Of a DNA stretch of 9,404 nucleotides, positions 1,662 to 9,168 are shown one piece after another (within the stretch, counting starts at the first letter, position 1; every line of letters starts with the position of its first letter). A program made the position numbers and the translations under genes. The notes under the pieces are model-generated. The model did not search any database. It was not told the origin of the DNA and worked only from the letters and a program-made list of their open reading frames with translations. The stretch covers positions 1 to 9,404 of the forward strand of contig JALSRO010000293.1 of assembly GCA_026984715.1 (NCBI GenBank). The letters are read 5' to 3'. The stretch is from Chromatiales bacterium. GTDB taxonomy: Bacteria; Pseudomonadota; Gammaproteobacteria; Thiohalospirales; Thiohalospiraceae.

Positions 1662-2171
1662 CTAGCGGCGTATCGCCGCCAGGATACCGCGCAGCAGCTC
1701 CATCGGCGTCGGCGGGCATCCCGGGATCAGGACATCCACCGGCAGCAGGTCGGCCACCGCCCCGCGGCAGGCGTATGAGACCCCGAACTCACCACCATCA
1801 CAGGCACACTGTCCGGCGGCGATGACTATCTTTGGCGCCGGCACCGCCTCCCAGGTGCGCCGCAGGGCCGCCTCCATGTGGCGGGAGACGGGTCCGGTCA
1901 CCAGCAGGGCATCGGCATGGCGCGGAGATGCGACGAAGCGCACTCCGAAACGCTCGATATCGTGATAGGGGTTGTCGAGGGCATGGATCTCCAGCTCACA
2001 TCCGTTACAGGATCCCGCATCCACCTGCCGAATCGCCAGGCTCCCGCCGTAGCGAGCCTCCACCACTCGTCTGACTTCGATCCCCACCTGCTGCAGCGTC
2101 GTATCATCTGCATCGGGAGGAGTCTCGGTCACCACACCGATGCGCCGAATGCGATCGAGAATTCTCAACAT
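1662..2171 (-). CDS. hyfI: HyfI/NuoB-like small subunit with a [4Fe-4S] cluster site
   Basis: 169 residues, homologous to HyfI/HycG and to NuoB of complex I, the subunit that carries the Fe-S cluster next to the catalytic or quinone site. All four expected ligands are present: C55 and C58 in SCNGCE, C122 in GQCACDGG and C152 in PGCPPTP. Other family signatures are SPRHAD (82-87) followed by VTGPVSR (91-97), and the PVDVLIPGCPP segment (144-154). It is soluble and should sit on the cytoplasmic face against the HyfG-like subunit. It is the last gene of the operon, 18 nt after hyfG, with a GGAG about 11 nt before the ATG. An intact cluster site while the partner has lost its NiFe centre suggests that electrons still reach this point, perhaps to a quinone or an unknown acceptor. 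The family is certain; the electron route is inferred. Confidence 0.93.
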   Translation of the reverse strand: MLRILDRIRRIGVVTETPPDADDTTLQQVGIEVRRVVEARYGGSLAIRQVDAGSCNGCELEIHALDNPYHDIERFGVRFVASPRHADALLVTGPVSRHMEAALRRTWEAVPAPKIVIAAGQCACDGGEFGVSYACRGAVADLLPVDVLIPGCPPTPMELLRGILAAIRR

Positions 2172-2189: not shown

Positions 2190-3776
2190 TTACAGATCGT
2201 GCCCCGAGTAGGAGCCGTTGACCGATTTGTTGCAGACCGGAAAGTCGGGAACGATGTTGCCCAGCATGATCTGCTCTAGTGCCGGCCAGTTGAACCAGCT
2301 CGGATCACGGGGGAAGAAGCGGGCGATCCGGCCCTTCTCCCCGAACCGGACATAACAGACGATCTCCCCCCGCCAGCCCTCTACCATACCGATCCCCCGG
2401 GCTCCCGCCGCGGGAACCGACATCTCCCGCACGATCCCGCCCTCCGGCAGCTGAAGCAGCAGCCGGTCGAGAAGGTCGAGAGAGTTCAAAGTCTCCTCCA
2501 TCCGCACCCGCAGGCGCGCCGCCACGTCCCCTTCCCGAAAGAGCGGCACCACCACCGGCAGACGGTCATAGGGAGGATGAGGGCTGGCTTGGCGCACATC
2601 GAACCCCTGCCCCGAGGCCCTGCCCACATAACCCAGGCAACCGAGCCGGTGAGCGGTCTCCGGCGTGAGCCGGCCGGTGGTGAGCAGCCGATCCTCCAAG
2701 GAAGGGTGATCCTCCAGAATGTCGTAGAGCGCGCCCAACTCATCCCGCAGCAGCCGGTGATCCTCCTGCAGCAGGCCCACCGCGGCTGGCTCCGGCTCCA
2801 CCGCCACACCACCGGGAACGATCCGGTCCATCATCAGCCGGTGACCGAACAGCTCGTGGTTGCGGCGCAGCCAGAGCTCGCGAAGACGGGAGAACTGGAC
2901 AAGCGCGAAGGCAAAGCCGACATCGTTGCAGATGGCGCCGATATCCCCGAGGTGATTGGCCACCCGCTCCCGTTCGGCCAGCAGCGCCCGCAGCGCCACG
3001 CCCCGCGATGGAACCTCCACCCCTGCAGCCCGCTCCATCGCCAGGCATGCGGCCCAGGTGTGGGCGACCGTGGTATCGCCCGAGATCCGCCCAGCCAACC
3101 GCGCCAGCCCCACCGGATCACGCCCCACGGCGATCTTCTCGATCCCCTTGTGGAGATAACCCAGACGCTCCTCCAGCTTCAGCACCCGCTCTCCCACCGC
3201 CTGAAAACGGAAGTGGCCGGGTTCGATGATACCGGCATGAACCGGACCCACAGGGATCTCGTACACGCCAGCCCCCTGGACCCGCGAGAACGGGTAGTCG
3301 TCGTCCGGTGGCGTCTCCTCGAGTACCTCCCCGTTGAGCGGAAAATCGTCACGCAGCGGATACCGCCCCGCTGGCCAGGCAGCATGACGAACCCAGCGCC
3401 GCGCATCCGGATGCTGCCCGAAGCGGATCCCGAACAGATCCTGCAGATGTCTTTCCTGGCGATCCGCGGCGGGGTAAACGGGGGCGTGGGAGGCGATCAA
3501 TGGTGCGGCCAGTGGCAGTTCAGTCTCCAGGATCAGGTAGTCCCCCCGATACTCCAGCAAGCAGTAAAGACCGAAGCGGCCACCCCGCTGTTCCGCCCAC
3601 ACTCCCGCCCAGCGGCATCCGAAGGCGGCGGAGTACCGGCCCGCCCGCCCCCAGTCATCCGCCTCCACTTGGATTACCCGGGCGGGCGGGAGCCGGGTGC
3701 CACCGTCACCCTGCAGAGGGACCCCACCGGCCTCCAGGCGTGCCCGATACTCCTCCAGCCATTCGAAACGGCTCAC
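2190..3776 (-). CDS. hyfG: HyfG-like large subunit (NuoC-NuoD fusion) lacking the NiFe ligands
   Basis: 528 residues with a GTG start whose GTGA overlaps the hyfF stop, preceded by GGGAGGA. The N-terminal part (about 1-145) is NuoC/30-kDa-like, with ERHLQDLFGIRFGQHPD (108-124) and YPLRDDFPL (139-147). The rest is NuoD/49-kDa or hydrogenase large-subunit-like, with GPVHAGIIEPGHFRF (177-191) and YLHKGIEKIAVGR (207-219). In true group 4 hydrogenases (HycE/HyfG) a first CxxC stands in an R-V-C-G-I-C-G motif. Here residues 230-236 are R-I-S-G-D-T-T. The C-terminal D-P-C-x-x-C is N-G-S-Y-S-G at 520-525. All four NiFe cysteines are therefore absent, while flanking residues (A-H-T, H-D-L end) still align. 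It cannot hold a NiFe site, so H2 chemistry is excluded on present knowledge. This matches Ehr-type relatives. What it oxidises or reduces is unknown; quinone is a reasonable guess by analogy with NuoD. An upstream ATG at 3857 would lie inside hyfF and is less likely. Confidence 0.93.
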   Translation of the reverse strand: MSRFEWLEEYRARLEAGGVPLQGDGGTRLPPARVIQVEADDWGRAGRYSAAFGCRWAGVWAEQRGGRFGLYCLLEYRGDYLILETELPLAAPLIASHAPVYPAADRQERHLQDLFGIRFGQHPDARRWVRHAAWPAGRYPLRDDFPLNGEVLEETPPDDDYPFSRVQGAGVYEIPVGPVHAGIIEPGHFRFQAVGERVLKLEERLGYLHKGIEKIAVGRDPVGLARLAGRISGDTTVAHTWAACLAMERAAGVEVPSRGVALRALLAERERVANHLGDIGAICNDVGFAFALVQFSRLRELWLRRNHELFGHRLMMDRIVPGGVAVEPEPAAVGLLQEDHRLLRDELGALYDILEDHPSLEDRLLTTGRLTPETAHRLGCLGYVGRASGQGFDVRQASPHPPYDRLPVVVPLFREGDVAARLRVRMEETLNSLDLLDRLLLQLPEGGIVREMSVPAAGARGIGMVEGWRGEIVCYVRFGEKGRIARFFPRDPSWFNWPALEQIMLGNIVPDFPVCNKSVNGSYSGHDL

Positions 3777-5245
3777 AACAGATGTCCTCCCGAGATGAGC
3801 CACGTGGCCTGATCCAGCCAGTGGGCGAGAAAGGCGGGAATGGCGATCCCCAGCCACAACACCAGACCGAGATGGACCATTACCGGCAACATATTGGCCG
3901 CCACCGGTTGCTGCCCTTCTGGCGCCTTGCCATAGACCATGGGGTGCAGATGGCGGAACAGGCCGGCGAAAGCGACCACCAGGCCGAACAGCAGGACCGA
4001 AGTCAGCCAGGGCCAGCTCTGCATGGTGGCAGAGAGCAGCAGGAACTCGCTGGTGAACACGCCGAAAGGCGGAAACCCGGCGATGGCCGCTACACCGATC
4101 AACAGACCCCAGCCCACCGCCGGCTGGGTGCGGATCAGGCCGCGGATCTGCTCGATGGTCTGGGTACCGGCGATATGGCTGGCGTGTCCCACGGTGACAA
4201 AGATGGCCGACTTGGTCAGCGAATGCACCAGCATATGCAGCAGCGCGCCGAAGGTGGCCAGCGGCCCGCCAATCCCGAAGGCAAAGGTCATCAACCCCAT
4301 GTGCTCGATGGAGGAGTAGCTGAACATCCGTTTGATGTCACGCTGGCGGTGCAGGAACAGACCCGCCACCAGAAACGAGATCAACCCAAATCCCATCATC
4401 AGCTCGCCGGCGATACCGGGCTGGTCGCTGGCGACCAGGGCGCCATCCACCAGCATCTTGAAACGCACCACGGCGTACAGCGCCACATTGAGCAGCAGGC
4501 CGGACAGCACTGCCGACATCGGTGTCGGCCCCTCGGAGTGGGCATCCGGCAACCAGTTGTGCAACGGCACCAGCCCCACCTTGGTGCCGTATCCCACAAG
4601 CAGGAAGACGAACGCAATGGCCATCACCGTGGGATGGAGCCGGGCGGCCTCGCCATACAGTACCGTCCAGCTCAATCCCCTGGAGGGATCGGCCAGAGCA
4701 TGCTGGGCGGCGAAATAGACCAGCACGGTACCGAACAGGGCCAGTGCGATACCGACACCACAGAGGATGAAATATTTCCAGGCCGCCTCGATGGACTCCG
4801 GAGTGCGATAGAGGCTCACCAGCAACACCGTCGCTAGAGTGGCCCCCTCCACCGCTACCCACAGCACCCCAAGGTTGTCAGTGGTCAGAGCCAGCAGCAT
4901 GGTGAACAGAAACCCTTGGAACATGGAGTGGTAGAGGCGCATGCGCCGCTCCGTCACCCTCCCCTCCCGACACACATGAGCCATGTATGGTCGGGAGAAA
5001 ATGGCGGTGGTGAGGCCGACGAAAGCGGTCAGCACCACCAGATAGACATTGAAGGCGTCCACGTGGAAACCGTGTCCGGTCAAATCGCCACCTTGGAGAA
5101 TCCTCAACGCCAGCCCCAACGCGGCAGCCAGCGTAGTTGCGCAGAACCCGAGATTGAGCCGGCCTGCCAGCTGCAGGGAGCGGATCCCTGCCAGCACCAG
5201 GGTACCCATCAAAGGGACGAATACCGTCATCAGCAGCGCGCTCAC
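3773..5245 (-). CDS. hyfF: HyfF-like antiporter-type membrane subunit
   Basis: 490 residues, a polytopic membrane protein of the NuoL/M/N-MrpA/D family (proton-translocating subunit), nearest to HyfF. The GTG start (5245) overlaps the hyfE stop as GTGA and follows GGAGG. Key polar residues of the ion path are visible: E133 in a WVAVEG segment (TM5), K222 in GTKVGLVPLHNWLPDAH (TM7) and K345 in HSLTKSAIF (TM12). At the TM8 position, where HyfB has K261, this protein has N253 (LLLNVALY). It overlaps hyfG by 4 bp. With HyfB it makes two antiporter-like subunits in the complex, so more than one ion-translocating channel is likely. Direction and ion (H+ or Na+) cannot be read from the sequence. Confidence 0.93.
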   Translation of the reverse strand: MSALLMTVFVPLMGTLVLAGIRSLQLAGRLNLGFCATTLAAALGLALRILQGGDLTGHGFHVDAFNVYLVVLTAFVGLTTAIFSRPYMAHVCREGRVTERRMRLYHSMFQGFLFTMLLALTTDNLGVLWVAVEGATLATVLLVSLYRTPESIEAAWKYFILCGVGIALALFGTVLVYFAAQHALADPSRGLSWTVLYGEAARLHPTVMAIAFVFLLVGYGTKVGLVPLHNWLPDAHSEGPTPMSAVLSGLLLNVALYAVVRFKMLVDGALVASDQPGIAGELMMGFGLISFLVAGLFLHRQRDIKRMFSYSSIEHMGLMTFAFGIGGPLATFGALLHMLVHSLTKSAIFVTVGHASHIAGTQTIEQIRGLIRTQPAVGWGLLIGVAAIAGFPPFGVFTSEFLLLSATMQSWPWLTSVLLFGLVVAFAGLFRHLHPMVYGKAPEGQQPVAANMLPVMVHLGLVLWLGIAIPAFLAHWLDQATWLISGGHLL

Positions 5246-5925
5246 GGCTCATCCTCCCAGGCGGAGAGCCGGTTGAGACGATCCACATCCAACGACTCGA
5301 TACTCTCGCTGATCTGCAAAAAGAAAACCCCGAACAGCACCGCCGCCACCAGCACATCGAAGGCCACTCCCAGCTCCACCACTAACGGCATGCCGTGGGT
5401 GGCGGTCGCCGCTGCCAGGAACAGGCCGTTCTCCATCGACATGAAGCCGATCACCTGGGTGACTGCCTGGCGCCGGGTCACCATGATCAGCAGGCCAAGC
5501 AGCACCACAGCCAGGCTGAGAGAAAGGATGTTGCGGGTCGTCGCCAGCTCCAGACGTTCGATGGGCACTACCACCCAGTAGCTGAAGATCACCAAGGCCG
5601 CCCCCAGCATCAGCGCCACGGCGGGCCGGGGCAGCGGGTCCAGATGGCGCTCGAGCTCCAGCCGGCGTACCAGGCGGTGAAGCATCCACGGGATGAGTAG
5701 CGCCTTCAGGGCAAGAGTCAACCCGGCCGAGACCAGCAGATGGGGCTCCCCATCCACCAGGGCGACCAGACCGGTGGCGCCGGCCAGCACCGCACCCTGC
5801 CAGGCAAACACATGGATCCCGGCCACCAGGCGCGCCTGGGCAAGGATGGAGAAGGAGAGAAACAGCACCAGGGCAGCAAGTACGAACACCGCCTGCTCCA
5901 CCAGCGTGAGTTGCGTCAGGATCAT
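5242..5925 (-). CDS. hyfE: HyfE-like small membrane subunit (NuoK/MrpC-related)
   Basis: 227 residues, slightly longer than E. coli HyfE (about 216). The ATG at 5925 forms an ATGA overlap with the hyfC stop and is preceded by GGAGGG. The frame is open further upstream inside hyfC, but that extension is low-complexity shadow sequence without membrane character. The protein is mostly hydrophobic, with six to seven predicted membrane segments. The C-terminal half is related to NuoK/MrpC and carries the conserved glutamate motif VIGFMSMENGLFL (158-170, E165), with a second membrane glutamate at E184. These acids belong to the proton path that couples the redox module to the antiporter-like subunits. 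The C-terminus is charged and cytosolic (IESLDVDRLNRL). Confidence 0.93.
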   Translation of the reverse strand: MILTQLTLVEQAVFVLAALVLFLSFSILAQARLVAGIHVFAWQGAVLAGATGLVALVDGEPHLLVSAGLTLALKALLIPWMLHRLVRRLELERHLDPLPRPAVALMLGAALVIFSYWVVVPIERLELATTRNILSLSLAVVLLGLLIMVTRRQAVTQVIGFMSMENGLFLAAATATHGMPLVVELGVAFDVLVAAVLFGVFFLQISESIESLDVDRLNRLSAWEDEP

Positions 5926-6872
5926 GCCCCACCCTCCAGGATCACATGGCTCAGCAGGCCGAGCAGCGCCAGCAACAGGGAAAAATTGAGGAACTGCGGA
6001 GCCCGGAACAGGCGCATCTTGGCCAACACCGTTTCTGTCACGGCCAGCAACACCCCCAGCAGGAGCAGCTTGGCCACCACGGCAAACAGACCGAACGATA
6101 CCGCCGCCAGCGACACCTCCCGGGCAATGCCCCACGGCAGGAAGACATTGACGATGAGCACCCCATAGAGCATCAGCTTCAACTGAGCAGCCCACTCCAT
6201 CAGCGCCAGGTGGCGGCCGCTGTACTCCAGAATCATCGCCTCGTGAATCATGGTCAGCTCCAGATGAGTGGTCGGATTGTCCACCGGGATGCGCCCGGTC
6301 TCGGCCACGGCCACCAGTACCAGCGCCATCAGGGCGAACAGATAGGAGGGCCGCAACACCAGGCCGAAGGCCAGCTGGTGGTCGATGACACTGGAGAGAT
6401 TGGTGCTGTGCGCAGTCATCGCCAGGGTGAACACCGCCAACAGCATCGCCGGCTCGGCCAGCGCCGAGACCAACATCTCCCGTGACGCCCCCATCCCTCC
6501 GAAGGCAGTACCCACATCCATCCCGGCCAGGGCGAGGAAAAACCGCCCCAATGCCAGGAACCCGACCAGCACGATGACATCGGCCACCGCCGTGAACGGC
6601 TGCCCCACCGCTACCAGCGGAACCCCCAGACAGGCCAGCAGCGTGGTGGCGAACACCACATAGGGCGCGGCACGGAACAGCTCCGAAGCGGTATGCGCCA
6701 CCAGTGCCTCCTTGGCGAACAGCTTGTTGAGATCACGATAGGGCTGCAACCAGCCTGGACCGCGACGGTTCTGCAGACGGGCCTTCACCCGCCTCACCCA
6801 CGCCATCAGCAGCGGCGCCCCGAACAGGAACAGCGCGGCCTGAAGCAGAACCCATCCGGACGAGAGATTCAC
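5922..6872 (-). CDS. hyfC: HyfC/NuoH-like membrane anchor subunit
   Basis: 316 residues, the usual HyfC/HycD length. The GTG start at 6872 overlaps the hyfB stop as GTGA; the ribosome site before it is weak, so translation is probably coupled to hyfB. It is related to NuoH (complex I subunit 1), the membrane subunit that docks the HyfG/HyfI module and forms the quinone-side chamber in complex I. Signatures: RRVKARLQNRRGPGWLQPY (27-45), GMDVGTAFGGMGASREM (117-133) and AETGRIPVDNPTTHLELT (190-207) followed by HEAMILEYSGR (210-220). The acidic and arginine residues of these loops, which link redox chemistry to ion movement in the family, are intact. The membrane coupling machinery thus looks functional although the NiFe site is gone. 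Confidence 0.93.
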   Translation of the reverse strand: MNLSSGWVLLQAALFLFGAPLLMAWVRRVKARLQNRRGPGWLQPYRDLNKLFAKEALVAHTASELFRAAPYVVFATTLLACLGVPLVAVGQPFTAVADVIVLVGFLALGRFFLALAGMDVGTAFGGMGASREMLVSALAEPAMLLAVFTLAMTAHSTNLSSVIDHQLAFGLVLRPSYLFALMALVLVAVAETGRIPVDNPTTHLELTMIHEAMILEYSGRHLALMEWAAQLKLMLYGVLIVNVFLPWGIAREVSLAAVSFGLFAVVAKLLLLGVLLAVTETVLAKMRLFRAPQFLNFSLLLALLGLLSHVILEGGA

Positions 6873-8893
6873 GAGATCACCCACAACAACACCACCAGAG
6901 TTCCCAGGGACCATGCCAGATAGACCCGGATATTGCCCGACTGCAGCCGGGTCACCCGGCGGGCCACCGCATGAATCCAGCGCTCGACAGGGGCGTAGAG
7001 CCACCCCCATGCCCGATCCAGCACAAGCAGCTGATAGCGCATCCCCTCCTCCCGTCGTTCTATCCGCTCCTCGATACGGAAGATTGGCCCGAAAACACGG
7101 CGGATGGGTTGGGAAAAAGCGGTAGCGGTGTACTGCATACGGGGCGACGGCAGAACCTGCCCGAAACCACAATCCCAGGGATCACAGCGCCGCACCTCAC
7201 CCCCGTCGTGACGGCGCAGCACCACGGCTGCGAGCCAGCCGACGAGAACCAGGGCCGCCACGACCACCGGAGCCGAATAACTGGCGACCTCCGGGGCCAC
7301 CGGCGTCAGCCACAGCCAGCCACGAGCGGTCGCCTGGGACAGCCCCTGCCCGAGCAGCTGAGCGGGAACCGCATCCAGCCACAGCAACACCGTCGTGGGG
7401 AACACCCCCGCCAAGAGGCAGAGGAGCGCAAGAGCGGCCTGTGCGGCACGCATACCAAGTGGCGTGGGGCGGGCACGGCGAACCCGCCGTGAGCGGGCCT
7501 GACCCAGGAAGGCCACCCCATAGACCTTGACAAAACAGGCTGCCGCCAGAGCCCCGGTCAACGCCAGCATGGCGGCCGTGATGGGGATCAGACTGCGCAA
7601 CACGCCCCCATCCAGCATCCAGGCCTGCAGTGCCGTCTGAAAGGTCAACCACTCGGAGACGAAGCCGTTGAACGGCGGCAGGGCAGAAATACTGATACAC
7701 CCCACCAGGAAAAACAGCCCGGTCCAGGGCATGCGCCGCAGCAGCCCACCCATACGCTCCAGATCCCGCTCATTGGCAGCATGCAGGATGGCGCCCGCGC
7801 CAAGGAACAACAGACTCTTGAACAGAGCGTGATTCAGTGTATGGTAGAGGGCGGCGACCAGCCCCAGCACCCCAATGGCGGGATGACCCGTAGCCAGGAA
7901 GATCACCCCCAATCCCAGCCCGATGAAGATGATGCCGATATTCTCCACCGAATGATAGGCCAGCAGGCGCTTGAGATCGTGCTGCATCAGCGCATAGAGC
8001 ACCCCCATCAGGGCTGAGGCGCTGCCGGCCACCAGGATCGCCACACCCCACTGCCACTGCAGCTCCCCCAGCAGATCGAACACGAAGCGAACAAAGCCGT
8101 ATACCGCAACCTTCAGCATCACCCCGGACATCATGGCCGAAACATGGGACGGCGCAGCGGGATGTGCCTCCGGCAGCCAGACATGCATCGGGACCAGGCC
8201 GGCCTTCATCCCGAACCCCACGAATGCCAGACCAAAGGCCACACTGGCCCAGCCGGGAGAGAGCGGAGCGGCACGCATGGCGTCGAAGGCGAAACCCTCC
8301 CCGAACCCGGCCAGGACACCATACCCCAGCAGGATCGACAGTGCACCCACATGGGCCATCAACAGATAGAGAAAGGCCGCGCGCCGGTTGGCAGCCTGCT
8401 CGTGCTGAAAGGCCACCAGGAAGTAGGAGCTCAACGACATCAGCTCCCACGCCACCATGAAAAGAAAGGCGTCGTCGGCCAGCACCACCAGCAGCATGCC
8501 AGTCACGAACAGGCCGGTGAACAGCCCCAGCACAGGCAGCGGATCCTGACCATGTTCGAAATCGCGCACATATCCTGGCCCATAGATCGCCACTGCAGCT
8601 ACCACCAGCCCGATGACCAGCAGGAAGAAGCCGGCCAGCGCATCGAGCCGCAGACGCCAGGCCAACCACGGCAACCCCAGCGGAAGCTCGCCGAGCGCCG
8701 CCTGGGGCGAAGCCAGGGCCGCCAGCCCGGCACCCACCGCCGCCACACCAGCCACCCCCAGCAGAACGAACATCGACCGCTTGAACAGCGGACCCCGTTT
8801 TCCCCCCGTTCCCAACGCCGAAACAGCCGACGCCAGCGACGCCAGCAGCGCCACACAGGCAAGCAAGAGAGAGAAAGGGAATACGCCGCCCAT
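6869..8893 (-). CDS. hyfB: HyfB-like antiporter-type membrane subunit
   Basis: 674 residues, close to E. coli HyfB (about 672). The ATG at 8893 comes 2 nt after the stop of the XRE regulator, with AGAGG as ribosome site. An in-frame upstream start at 8971 would overlap the regulator and adds non-membrane sequence. It belongs to the NuoL/M/N-MrpA/D family. The ion-path residues are complete: E150 in MVAWELMSLSSY (TM5), K230 in GMKAGLVPMHVWLPEAH (TM7), K261 in VMLKVAVYG (TM8) and K359 in HALFKSLLFLGAG (TM12). The C-terminal extension typical of HyfB follows, with CDPWDCGFG and SPRMQYTATAFSQPI and a last membrane helix near the end. It is the distal antiporter-like subunit; its ion specificity is not visible. 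Confidence 0.94.
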   Translation of the reverse strand: MGGVFPFSLLLACVALLASLASAVSALGTGGKRGPLFKRSMFVLLGVAGVAAVGAGLAALASPQAALGELPLGLPWLAWRLRLDALAGFFLLVIGLVVAAVAIYGPGYVRDFEHGQDPLPVLGLFTGLFVTGMLLVVLADDAFLFMVAWELMSLSSYFLVAFQHEQAANRRAAFLYLLMAHVGALSILLGYGVLAGFGEGFAFDAMRAAPLSPGWASVAFGLAFVGFGMKAGLVPMHVWLPEAHPAAPSHVSAMMSGVMLKVAVYGFVRFVFDLLGELQWQWGVAILVAGSASALMGVLYALMQHDLKRLLAYHSVENIGIIFIGLGLGVIFLATGHPAIGVLGLVAALYHTLNHALFKSLLFLGAGAILHAANERDLERMGGLLRRMPWTGLFFLVGCISISALPPFNGFVSEWLTFQTALQAWMLDGGVLRSLIPITAAMLALTGALAAACFVKVYGVAFLGQARSRRVRRARPTPLGMRAAQAALALLCLLAGVFPTTVLLWLDAVPAQLLGQGLSQATARGWLWLTPVAPEVASYSAPVVVAALVLVGWLAAVVLRRHDGGEVRRCDPWDCGFGQVLPSPRMQYTATAFSQPIRRVFGPIFRIEERIERREEGMRYQLLVLDRAWGWLYAPVERWIHAVARRVTRLQSGNIRVYLAWSLGTLVVLLWVIS

Positions 8894-8895
8894 TG

Positions 8896-9168
8896 TCAAC
8901 CTCTGAGCCGCACTCCACGCCCCCCAGCCGGGCTGGCCGCCCCTTCGGCAATCAGCTCCACACCGCCGCACTCCAGCGCCGCCACCACCTTGACCAGGGA
9001 GTCGACGTTGCCACGCACGTTACCCTCGCTCGCCTCCATGCGTTGAATGGTCGGCAGGGAGAGCCCGGCCTCCTGCGCCAGGTGGCTCTGGTCCCACCCC
9101 AGCAGCACTCTGGCCGCCTTCATCTGTCTTGCGGTAATCAATGGCTCATCCTCCTCCTCGTTCCCCAT
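8896..9168 (-). CDS. Small XRE-family HTH transcriptional regulator
   Basis: 90 residues from the ATG at 9168, which has GGAG four bases upstream. In-frame starts further up (GTG 9237, ATG 9228) would give up to 113 residues but have no clear ribosome site. The protein is almost only a DNA-binding domain: LITARQMKAARVLLGWDQ (10-27), then HLAQEAGLSLPTIQRMEAS (29-47) as the helix-turn-helix. A short helical tail follows, with GGVELIAEG and GRGVRLRG at the end, typical of a large group of small XRE regulators. No ligand-binding or Fe-S domain is present. As the first cistron of the hyf-like operon, 2 nt before hyfB, it probably controls that operon, including itself. The palindrome at 9292-9304 on the -35 box is its best candidate operator. 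Confidence 0.88.
   Translation of the reverse strand: MGNEEEDEPLITARQMKAARVLLGWDQSHLAQEAGLSLPTIQRMEASEGNVRGNVDSLVKVVAALECGGVELIAEGAASPAGGRGVRLRG

Follow-up and report, generated by a model that had tools for sequence, protein, structure and literature searches.

A hyfBCEFGI operon whose hydrogenase-like large subunit carries another conserved set of residues in place of the NiFe cysteines

Operon layout and genomic setting

The window, that is, the whole stretch of 9,404 nucleotides analysed here, is a complete contig (G000:C293) of a Chromatiales genome of 2.14 Mb in 490 contigs, 86.5% complete. Read along the minus strand, it carries an XRE-HTH gene followed by hyfB, hyfC, hyfE, hyfF, hyfG and hyfI, with small overlaps or gaps between the genes:

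8896-9168, minus strand: XRE-family HTH regulator, directly 5' of hyfB; 90 residues from the ATG at 9168, start uncertain
6869-8893, minus strand: HyfB-like antiporter subunit, 674 residues; pump residues E150, K230, K261 and E414 retained
5922-6914, minus strand: HyfC/NuoH-like membrane anchor, about 330 residues, start uncertain; E151, D209, E216 and E227 retained
5242-5925, minus strand: HyfE-like membrane subunit, 227 residues
3773-5245, minus strand: HyfF-like antiporter subunit, 490 residues; pump residues E133, K222 and E400 retained
2190-3776, minus strand: HyfG/HycE-like large subunit, 528 residues, with NuoC-like and NuoD-like domains and without the NiFe cysteines
3069-3089, minus strand: first former CxxC, R-I-S-G-D-T-T (R230-T236), read codon by codon
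2193-2234, minus strand: C-terminal motif C515-N-K-S-V-N-G-S-Y-S-G-H-D-L528, which spans the second former CxxC and runs to the protein terminus
1662-2171, minus strand: HyfI/NuoB-like small subunit, 169 residues, with cluster cysteines C55, C58, C122 and C152
581-1144: iron-transport protein (PF10634; Tpd), about 520 bases downstream of the operon

The order B-C-E-F-G-I recurs in 76 of the 81 loci of the main family (the one to which the window's HyfG belongs) that have enough sequence on both flanks, as well as in seven annotated plasmid records. The five that deviate are L005, L132 and L138, where genes were not found, L033, which has no B or C match, and L044, in which C is fragmented. A HyfI match after HyfG is absent from five main loci with room for one (L005, L011, L032, L132 and L138). 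In L132 (genome G043) the large subunit stands without any B, C, E, F or I match nearby; this locus and L138 (G276), an operon without an I match after G, both belong to family f33. Of the 120 loci searched, 15 (14 of them distinct) have a gene like the XRE gene of the window upstream of hyfB, and the three Rhizobium plasmids that have one there show 61-69% identity.

No operon match was found in the 11 other genomes of the host's genus and family that were searched, so the operon either was gained recently or reflects a binning error. The neighbouring Tpd gene, found in one of these 11 (G001, 82% identity), favours a true gain over a binning error, but thinly.

The former NiFe site of HyfG

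HyfG matches the profiles Complex1_30kDa and Complex1_49kDa and, weakly, the start of NiFeSe_Hases. Its closest relative of known structure is E. coli HycE, both by sequence (7z0s_E, E 1.8e-59) and by fold: the AlphaFold2 model (mean pLDDT 86.7, pTM 0.88; low-confidence stretches at residues 171-191, 201-208 and 524-528) has its best match in HycE of 7z0s, with a TM of 0.88, which bears out the HycE/HyfG relationship proposed in the initial annotation. That annotation had also read the two altered motifs as RISGDTT (3089-3069) and NGSYSG (2219-2202), with all four NiFe cysteines lost. Codon by codon these positions are exact, and in the alignment C241, C244, C531 and C534 of HycE correspond to S232, T235, S522 and G525 of the window.

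The loss is shared throughout the family. In the 114 rows formed by the fetched main loci and the window, which include two exact duplicate pairs, cysteine occurs in four rows at the S232 column, in two at the T235 column and in none at the S522 and G525 columns; no row has more than one of the four cysteines, and each is therefore without at least three. A second alignment of 121 rows, consisting of the query and the best 120 of 8000 scored homologues with the window protein counted twice, has cysteine at the S232 column in two rows and at the other three columns in none.

In place of the cysteines, the family has a set of residues of its own. D234, N516, K517, S518 and Y523 are each invariant (114/114), and a phylum-wide search yielded 26 further Cys-less rows, all with the same five residues. 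N520 and D527 are each found in 113 of 114 rows, serine occupies the S232 and S522 columns in 101 rows each, and the T235 column holds S or T in 109, giving a main-family signature of G-D-[ST] ... N-K-S-x-N-x-[SAN]-Y-[SA]-G-x-D-L. Of the five residues singled out in the initial annotation, D234 is kept without exception and S232, T235 and S522 in most rows; the fifth, H526, is not, with histidine in only 56 of 114, and the H239 and C515 columns vary as well. Relative to five NiFe rows, the substitutions in the clade are D for I at 234, D for N at 278, D for F at 285, D for A at 491, N for I at 516, K for G at 517 and N for D at 520. The C-terminal end differs too: HyfG terminates at D527-L528, and HycE reads ...CTDR and then 32 more residues. 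In HycE this tail is removed by cleavage once nickel has been inserted. By their alignment with HycE, the new residues (D234, D278, D491, N516, K517 and N520, among others) would sit at the former NiFe site.

Judged by the replacement residues conserved across the 114 rows, this is a maintained site and not decay, in agreement with the stable substitution described in the initial annotation. Sequencing error is rejected along with decay: a single open reading frame of 528 codons runs from the GTG at 3776, and the relatives carry the same residues.

HypD bears on the same question. NiFe sites depend on it for their Fe(CN)2CO group. Of 275 genomes sampled from the class, 34 have the main family at more than 500 bits (the carriers), and a HypD match at E <= 1e-20 was found in 109 of the 275, among them 17 of the 34 carriers; it is absent from the other 17, so NiFe assembly is dispensable for the complex. 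The host genome itself has HypD and a full NiFe hydrogenase elsewhere, and for the window the non-NiFe case accordingly rests on the cysteines. Contig C114 of this genome encodes the large subunit of a NiFe hydrogenase at full length (781 bits).

An active NiFe hydrogenase, with its motifs masked by sequencing error or with other ligands used instead, has next to no probability. The fold and the family names speak for it, but each of the 114 rows has lost three or all four cysteines and HypD is missing from the 17 carriers mentioned; of the features of group 4 NiFe enzymes, the window has S-T-S-G instead of C-C-C-C, and a HyfH-like ferredoxin subunit was not found.

Phylogeny and distribution

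A tree of 81 rows was built with both motif stretches left out. In it the Cys-less Hyf-type rows group together (SH-aLRT 99), comprising 48 main-family rows and seven of a second subfamily, T2, with five CCCC (NiFe) rows on the opposite side (98). Within the Cys-less side the main family has a support of 99 and T2 of 92. The tree was made by a quick method, with no bootstrap, and was rooted on NuoCD by a weak root branch (79); it took in every third row of the main alignment (39 of 114, window included) and nine of the 26 Cys-less phylum rows. The separation from active NiFe enzymes anticipated in the initial annotation thus holds against the HycE/HyfG type, the only NiFe rows in the tree; with Ech, Mbh and other group 4 enzymes left out, an unsampled NiFe lineage could still be nearer. 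In a second tree, the one used for SulP below, six Nitrospirota rows (L032, L033, L035, L038, L047 and L060) are placed inside the main family.

The Cys-less form is common. A search with E. coli HycE of 199 genomes sampled from the window's phylum matched 55 genomes at E <= 1e-40, for which 30 loci were obtained; after exclusion of the window's own, 26 of the 29 loci read are Cys-less and three are CCCC NiFe enzymes.

T2 differs from the main family in its ferredoxin equipment. HyfH/NuoI-like matches are located in T2 operons, and in Variovorax (L236) the T2 small subunit has Fer4 domains fused to the NuoB-like domain, whereas the adjoining main one has none. Among the main-family operons there is no match to HyfH, NuoI or HyfA (120 loci searched, 113 of them main), and no ferredoxin domain was found in the window's HyfI.

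Three further observations concern these relatives. Parts of T2-like operons lie just upstream of main BCEFGI operons at L236:1-1416 (Variovorax), L046:1-4329 and L079:190-3534. The T2 genes of L154-L160 are ordered C-E-F-G-I-B, and L159 and L160 each have a second B. A further NuoD-like class (L184-L193 except L187, L195, L197, L199 and L200), ends in ...CPPEVDR or ...YPPEIER and has no more than two of the four cysteines; ten of its rows read C-D-C-E at those columns.

Coupling subunits and the iron-sulfur subunit

The residues expected of a pump are retained in the membrane subunits, counted in alignments that skip translated rows with internal stops or less than 60% of the query length. 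Compared with E144, K234, K265 and E407 of NuoM, HyfB has E150 (90/90), K230 (90/90), K261 (86/91) and E414 (91/91), and HyfF has E133 (99/99), K222 (99/100) and E400 (100/100); HyfF has no matching lysine in the K265 column, and its conserved K263 is located elsewhere. In HyfC, E151, D209, E216 and E227 are each present in 94/94 rows, and acidic residues are retained in HyfE too. These charged residues support a working pump, and from them we infer that the complex pumps.

The HyfI cysteines C55, C58, C122 and C152 are invariant (107/107), and the CxxC spacing is that of E. coli HyfI, i.e., of the hydrogenase type. The four are predicted to hold one [4Fe-4S] cluster, and by this measure there is no sign of an open cluster like that of the Pyrococcus MBS complex, where a shortened loop of the small subunit leaves one iron without its cysteine.

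Site residues and the known chemistries

We take H38 of Nqo4 to be the second histidine of the NHPS-x-H loop and Y87 to be the tyrosine after D-R-x-(D/E). The presumed H38 column reads I184 in 114/114 rows and H in 7/7 NuoCD rows; the presumed Y87 column reads G233 in 111/114 rows, otherwise A, and Y in 7/7 NuoCD rows. E185, at the position of MbhL E21 in an alignment with MbhL, is the proton-gate glutamate, with E in 113/114 rows, and the E-P-G-H-F loop of HyfG is of the hydrogenase kind. D285 aligns with NuoCD D325, a position that is F in the five NiFe rows. In the excerpts of PMC7684303, H38 and Y87 of Nqo4 are markers of the quinone headgroup, MbhL E21 is the marker of proton reduction, and an incompletely coordinated cluster is that of sulfane reduction. 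The site thus keeps a hydrogenase feature without NiFe, lacks the quinone residues at the presumed columns and, by cysteine count, has no open cluster iron, and the residues of HyfG and HyfI match none of these three known chemistries (H2, quinone and sulfane).

An Ehr complex that reduces quinone or oxidises quinol, passing electrons between the HyfI cluster and a quinone in the HyfC/G/I cavity and pumping protons as complex I does, is possible but doubtful. The architecture and pump residues of the complex I family are consistent with it, as is D285; I184 and G233 in the presumed headgroup columns, the hydrogenase-like E-P-G-H-F loop and the absence of a donor module from the operon argue against it. 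The missing His and Tyr are no proof against quinone, because MBS, though likewise without this pair, reduces a hydrophobic substrate all the same, as those excerpts have it (PMC7684303).

Candidate partners and substrates

We looked for partners both beside the operon and in whole genomes, the carrier and non-carrier counts below being from the single class sample of 275 with phylogeny ignored. Of the 113 main loci, 18 have a SulP gene in the stretch fetched, against none of 20 nuoD control stretches (p 0.07), with three probes drawn from the very loci counted and a control of only 20 stretches. In Methylocaldum (L027) SulP stands inside the operon, between F and G, where the Methylocalor plasmid L235 has a SulP-like fragment. 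On the second tree the SulP trait changes eight times, six of these being forced by well supported branches (two duplicate loci left out, SulP scored on 85 of 112 rows). At genome level SulP is no commoner in carriers (24/34) than in non-carriers (173/241, p 0.84), and the host genome has none at E <= 1e-40; an obligate partnership is rejected on these two grounds, despite the recurrent adjacency. Seven SulP proteins were tested: all stay below the BicA cut-off, and five pass the general sulfate-permease cut-off. RuBisCO is not enriched either (19/34 carriers against 124/241 others, p 0.72), and with it a link to CO2 fixation is rejected.

Formate dehydrogenase gave a similar picture. Fdh-alpha at E <= 1e-150 occurs in 17/34 carriers and 111/241 others (p 0.72), with none at that threshold in the host genome, 86.5% of which is represented in the assembly. 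Of 120 loci, only L075 has an FdhF-like match, about 6 kb away from its operon, and none has an XdhA/CoxL-like one; this FdhF-like match apart, the loci searched have no formate dehydrogenase, CO-dehydrogenase-like or ferredoxin genes beside the operon. A formate hydrogenlyase partner is rejected, since formate dehydrogenase is neither adjacent nor enriched.

Because no electron donor or acceptor was found beside the operon, there is room for a complex that is not a redox enzyme but handles a small anion such as bicarbonate at the expense of the proton motive force, in the manner of DAB and of NDH-1MS for CO2, with SulP as partner in some lineages. The SulP genes in and near the operon, the repeated changes of this trait on the tree, and the new invariant lysine and asparagine, which could bind an anion, all point that way. 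We consider it unlikely, in view of the marginal control comparison and its shared probes, the genome-level figures for SulP and RuBisCO, the BicA result and the invariant cluster cysteines of HyfI. Nor is there a zinc set among the near-motif residues examined: the Cys/His columns (H239, C515 and H526) vary, which makes a zinc site near the motifs improbable; other His and Asp residues of the catalytic subunit are invariant. The excerpts of three papers on dissolved inorganic carbon uptake (PMC6458275, PMC10880623 and PMC13144422) do not describe an operon of the window's type.

More improbable still is a role as membrane arm of a formate- or CO-oxidising complex, FHL-like or FDH-Ehr, with the dehydrogenase encoded elsewhere. 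The published excerpts lend it some weight: an FDH-Ehr complex has been proposed (PMC6349859), the Geobacter Ehr is more abundant on formate (PMC7894505), and a CODH adjoins the operon in Ca. Nitrospira nitrosa (PMC5596200). The adjacency and enrichment counts for the dehydrogenases given above weigh against it, as does the want of a HyfA- or HyfH-like linker in the main operons.

Relation to known systems

The gene family is an ordinary one, known in print as Ehr, and its hydrogenase name is wrong. Ehr complexes are described in PMC6349859 and PMC10284858, in the excerpts to hand, as lacking the CxxC motifs and as having no known function, and the Ehr reading of the initial annotation fits these descriptions; with such complexes already in print, the window belongs to a known kind. 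Its further point, that the hydrogenase-4 name misleads, proved real: as far as the excerpts go, hyfBCEFGI operons were read as hydrogenase-4 or formate hydrogenlyase in PMC5596200 and PMC3958643, genome papers that inferred H2 or formate metabolism from them, whereas the catalytic subunit of the A. ferrooxidans hyfBCEFGI is a non-hydrogenase by HydDB in PMC7735108. No reaction is given for the hyfBCEFGI family in the literature excerpts found, and PMC7894505 states that the role of Geobacter Ehr was never investigated.

With Ehr the window shares its standing as a group 4/complex I relative without NiFe ligands, the antiporter (Mrp/Nuo-type) subunits in the operon, and the six-gene order, which is named for Acidithiobacillus, Nitrospira and vent Epsilonproteobacteria in excerpts of PMC7735108, PMC5596200 and PMC3958643. 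The published Ehr of Geobacter and Nitrospira were compared by description, and the Nitrospirota rows do fall in the main family. Unlike Ehr as described, the main family has no ferredoxin subunit in the operon and has its own signature, which the excerpts leave unmentioned. To the extent of these excerpts, the Ehr papers likewise do not mention the residue tests, the distinction between a ferredoxin-less main family and a ferredoxin-fused T2, the XRE gene or the recurrent SulP.

E. coli hydrogenase-4/FHL has the same fold, the B, C, E, F, G, I order among its hyf genes, the glutamate at E185, the EPGHF loop and the four-cysteine cluster subunit; the window differs in being without the NiFe cysteines, HyfA/D/H and the C-terminal tail, and has D234, D278, N516 and K517 for I245, N289, I511 and G512 of E. 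coli HyfG. Complex I (NuoCD, NuoB, NuoH and NuoL/M/N) has the pump residues and the aspartate at NuoCD D325 in common with the window, and is set apart by the window's I184 and G233 at the quinone His/Tyr, a cluster CxxC instead of CC, and an operon with no NADH arm. The Pyrococcus MBS also lacks the quinone residues and has partly lost the NiFe cysteines, but it has a cysteine-free cluster iron and no glutamate of the MbhL E21 kind (excerpts of PMC7684303), whereas the window keeps four cysteines and E185. DAB2 and NDH-1MS combine antiporter-type subunits with a non-hydrogenase catalytic part, as the window does, and the SulP neighbours of some lineages are a further likeness; the window genes include an iron-sulfur subunit and no DabA- or Cup-like protein.

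Proposed function

Since the NiFe cysteines have been replaced by another conserved set, the proton pumping is likely to run via another reaction. On balance we favour HyfB, C, E, F, G and I as an Ehr-type complex without the nickel cysteines, probably a redox complex that translocates protons and has as its substrate a small polar molecule, neither H2 nor a quinone of the complex I kind. Its subunits would assemble as in formate hydrogenlyase, and the cluster of HyfI would be built and active in electron transfer. Since the search of the operon gave no ferredoxin-like subunit, the electron partner would dock directly on HyfI. A change of charge at the pocket may then be passed to HyfC and drive the two antiporter subunits. 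The tests for H2, quinone and sulfane residues, together with the clade signature, narrow the Ehr question to the molecule at D234/N516/K517/Y523.

More speculatively, and with a good deal of doubt, the complex could add a fourth chemistry to the complex I superfamily: a one-cluster pump without a ferredoxin arm, its former NiFe cavity turned into a D/N/K/Y pocket that receives a small anion (e.g., formate or bicarbonate). In several lineages a repeatedly recruited SulP would supply the anion, and the complex would be governed by an XRE switch of its own.

Other neighbouring genes

Some lineages have further genes near the operon. The idea of a hypoxia island for the Burkholderia copies was dropped, as the excerpts of PMC3759415 and PMC9104464 gave nothing on the operon. 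A YoaK/DUF1275 membrane protein is encoded near the operon in L041, L065, L069, L074, L081 and the plasmid loci L238-L241, which are of Burkholderiales type or from Rhizobium, and spermidine-synthase-like genes recur in some of these. In the Methylococcales loci L011, L016, L021, L026 and L031, two genes that by sequence resemble a histidine kinase and a response regulator lie 3' of the operon, and in four of the five loci a DUF2490-type protein precedes the pair.
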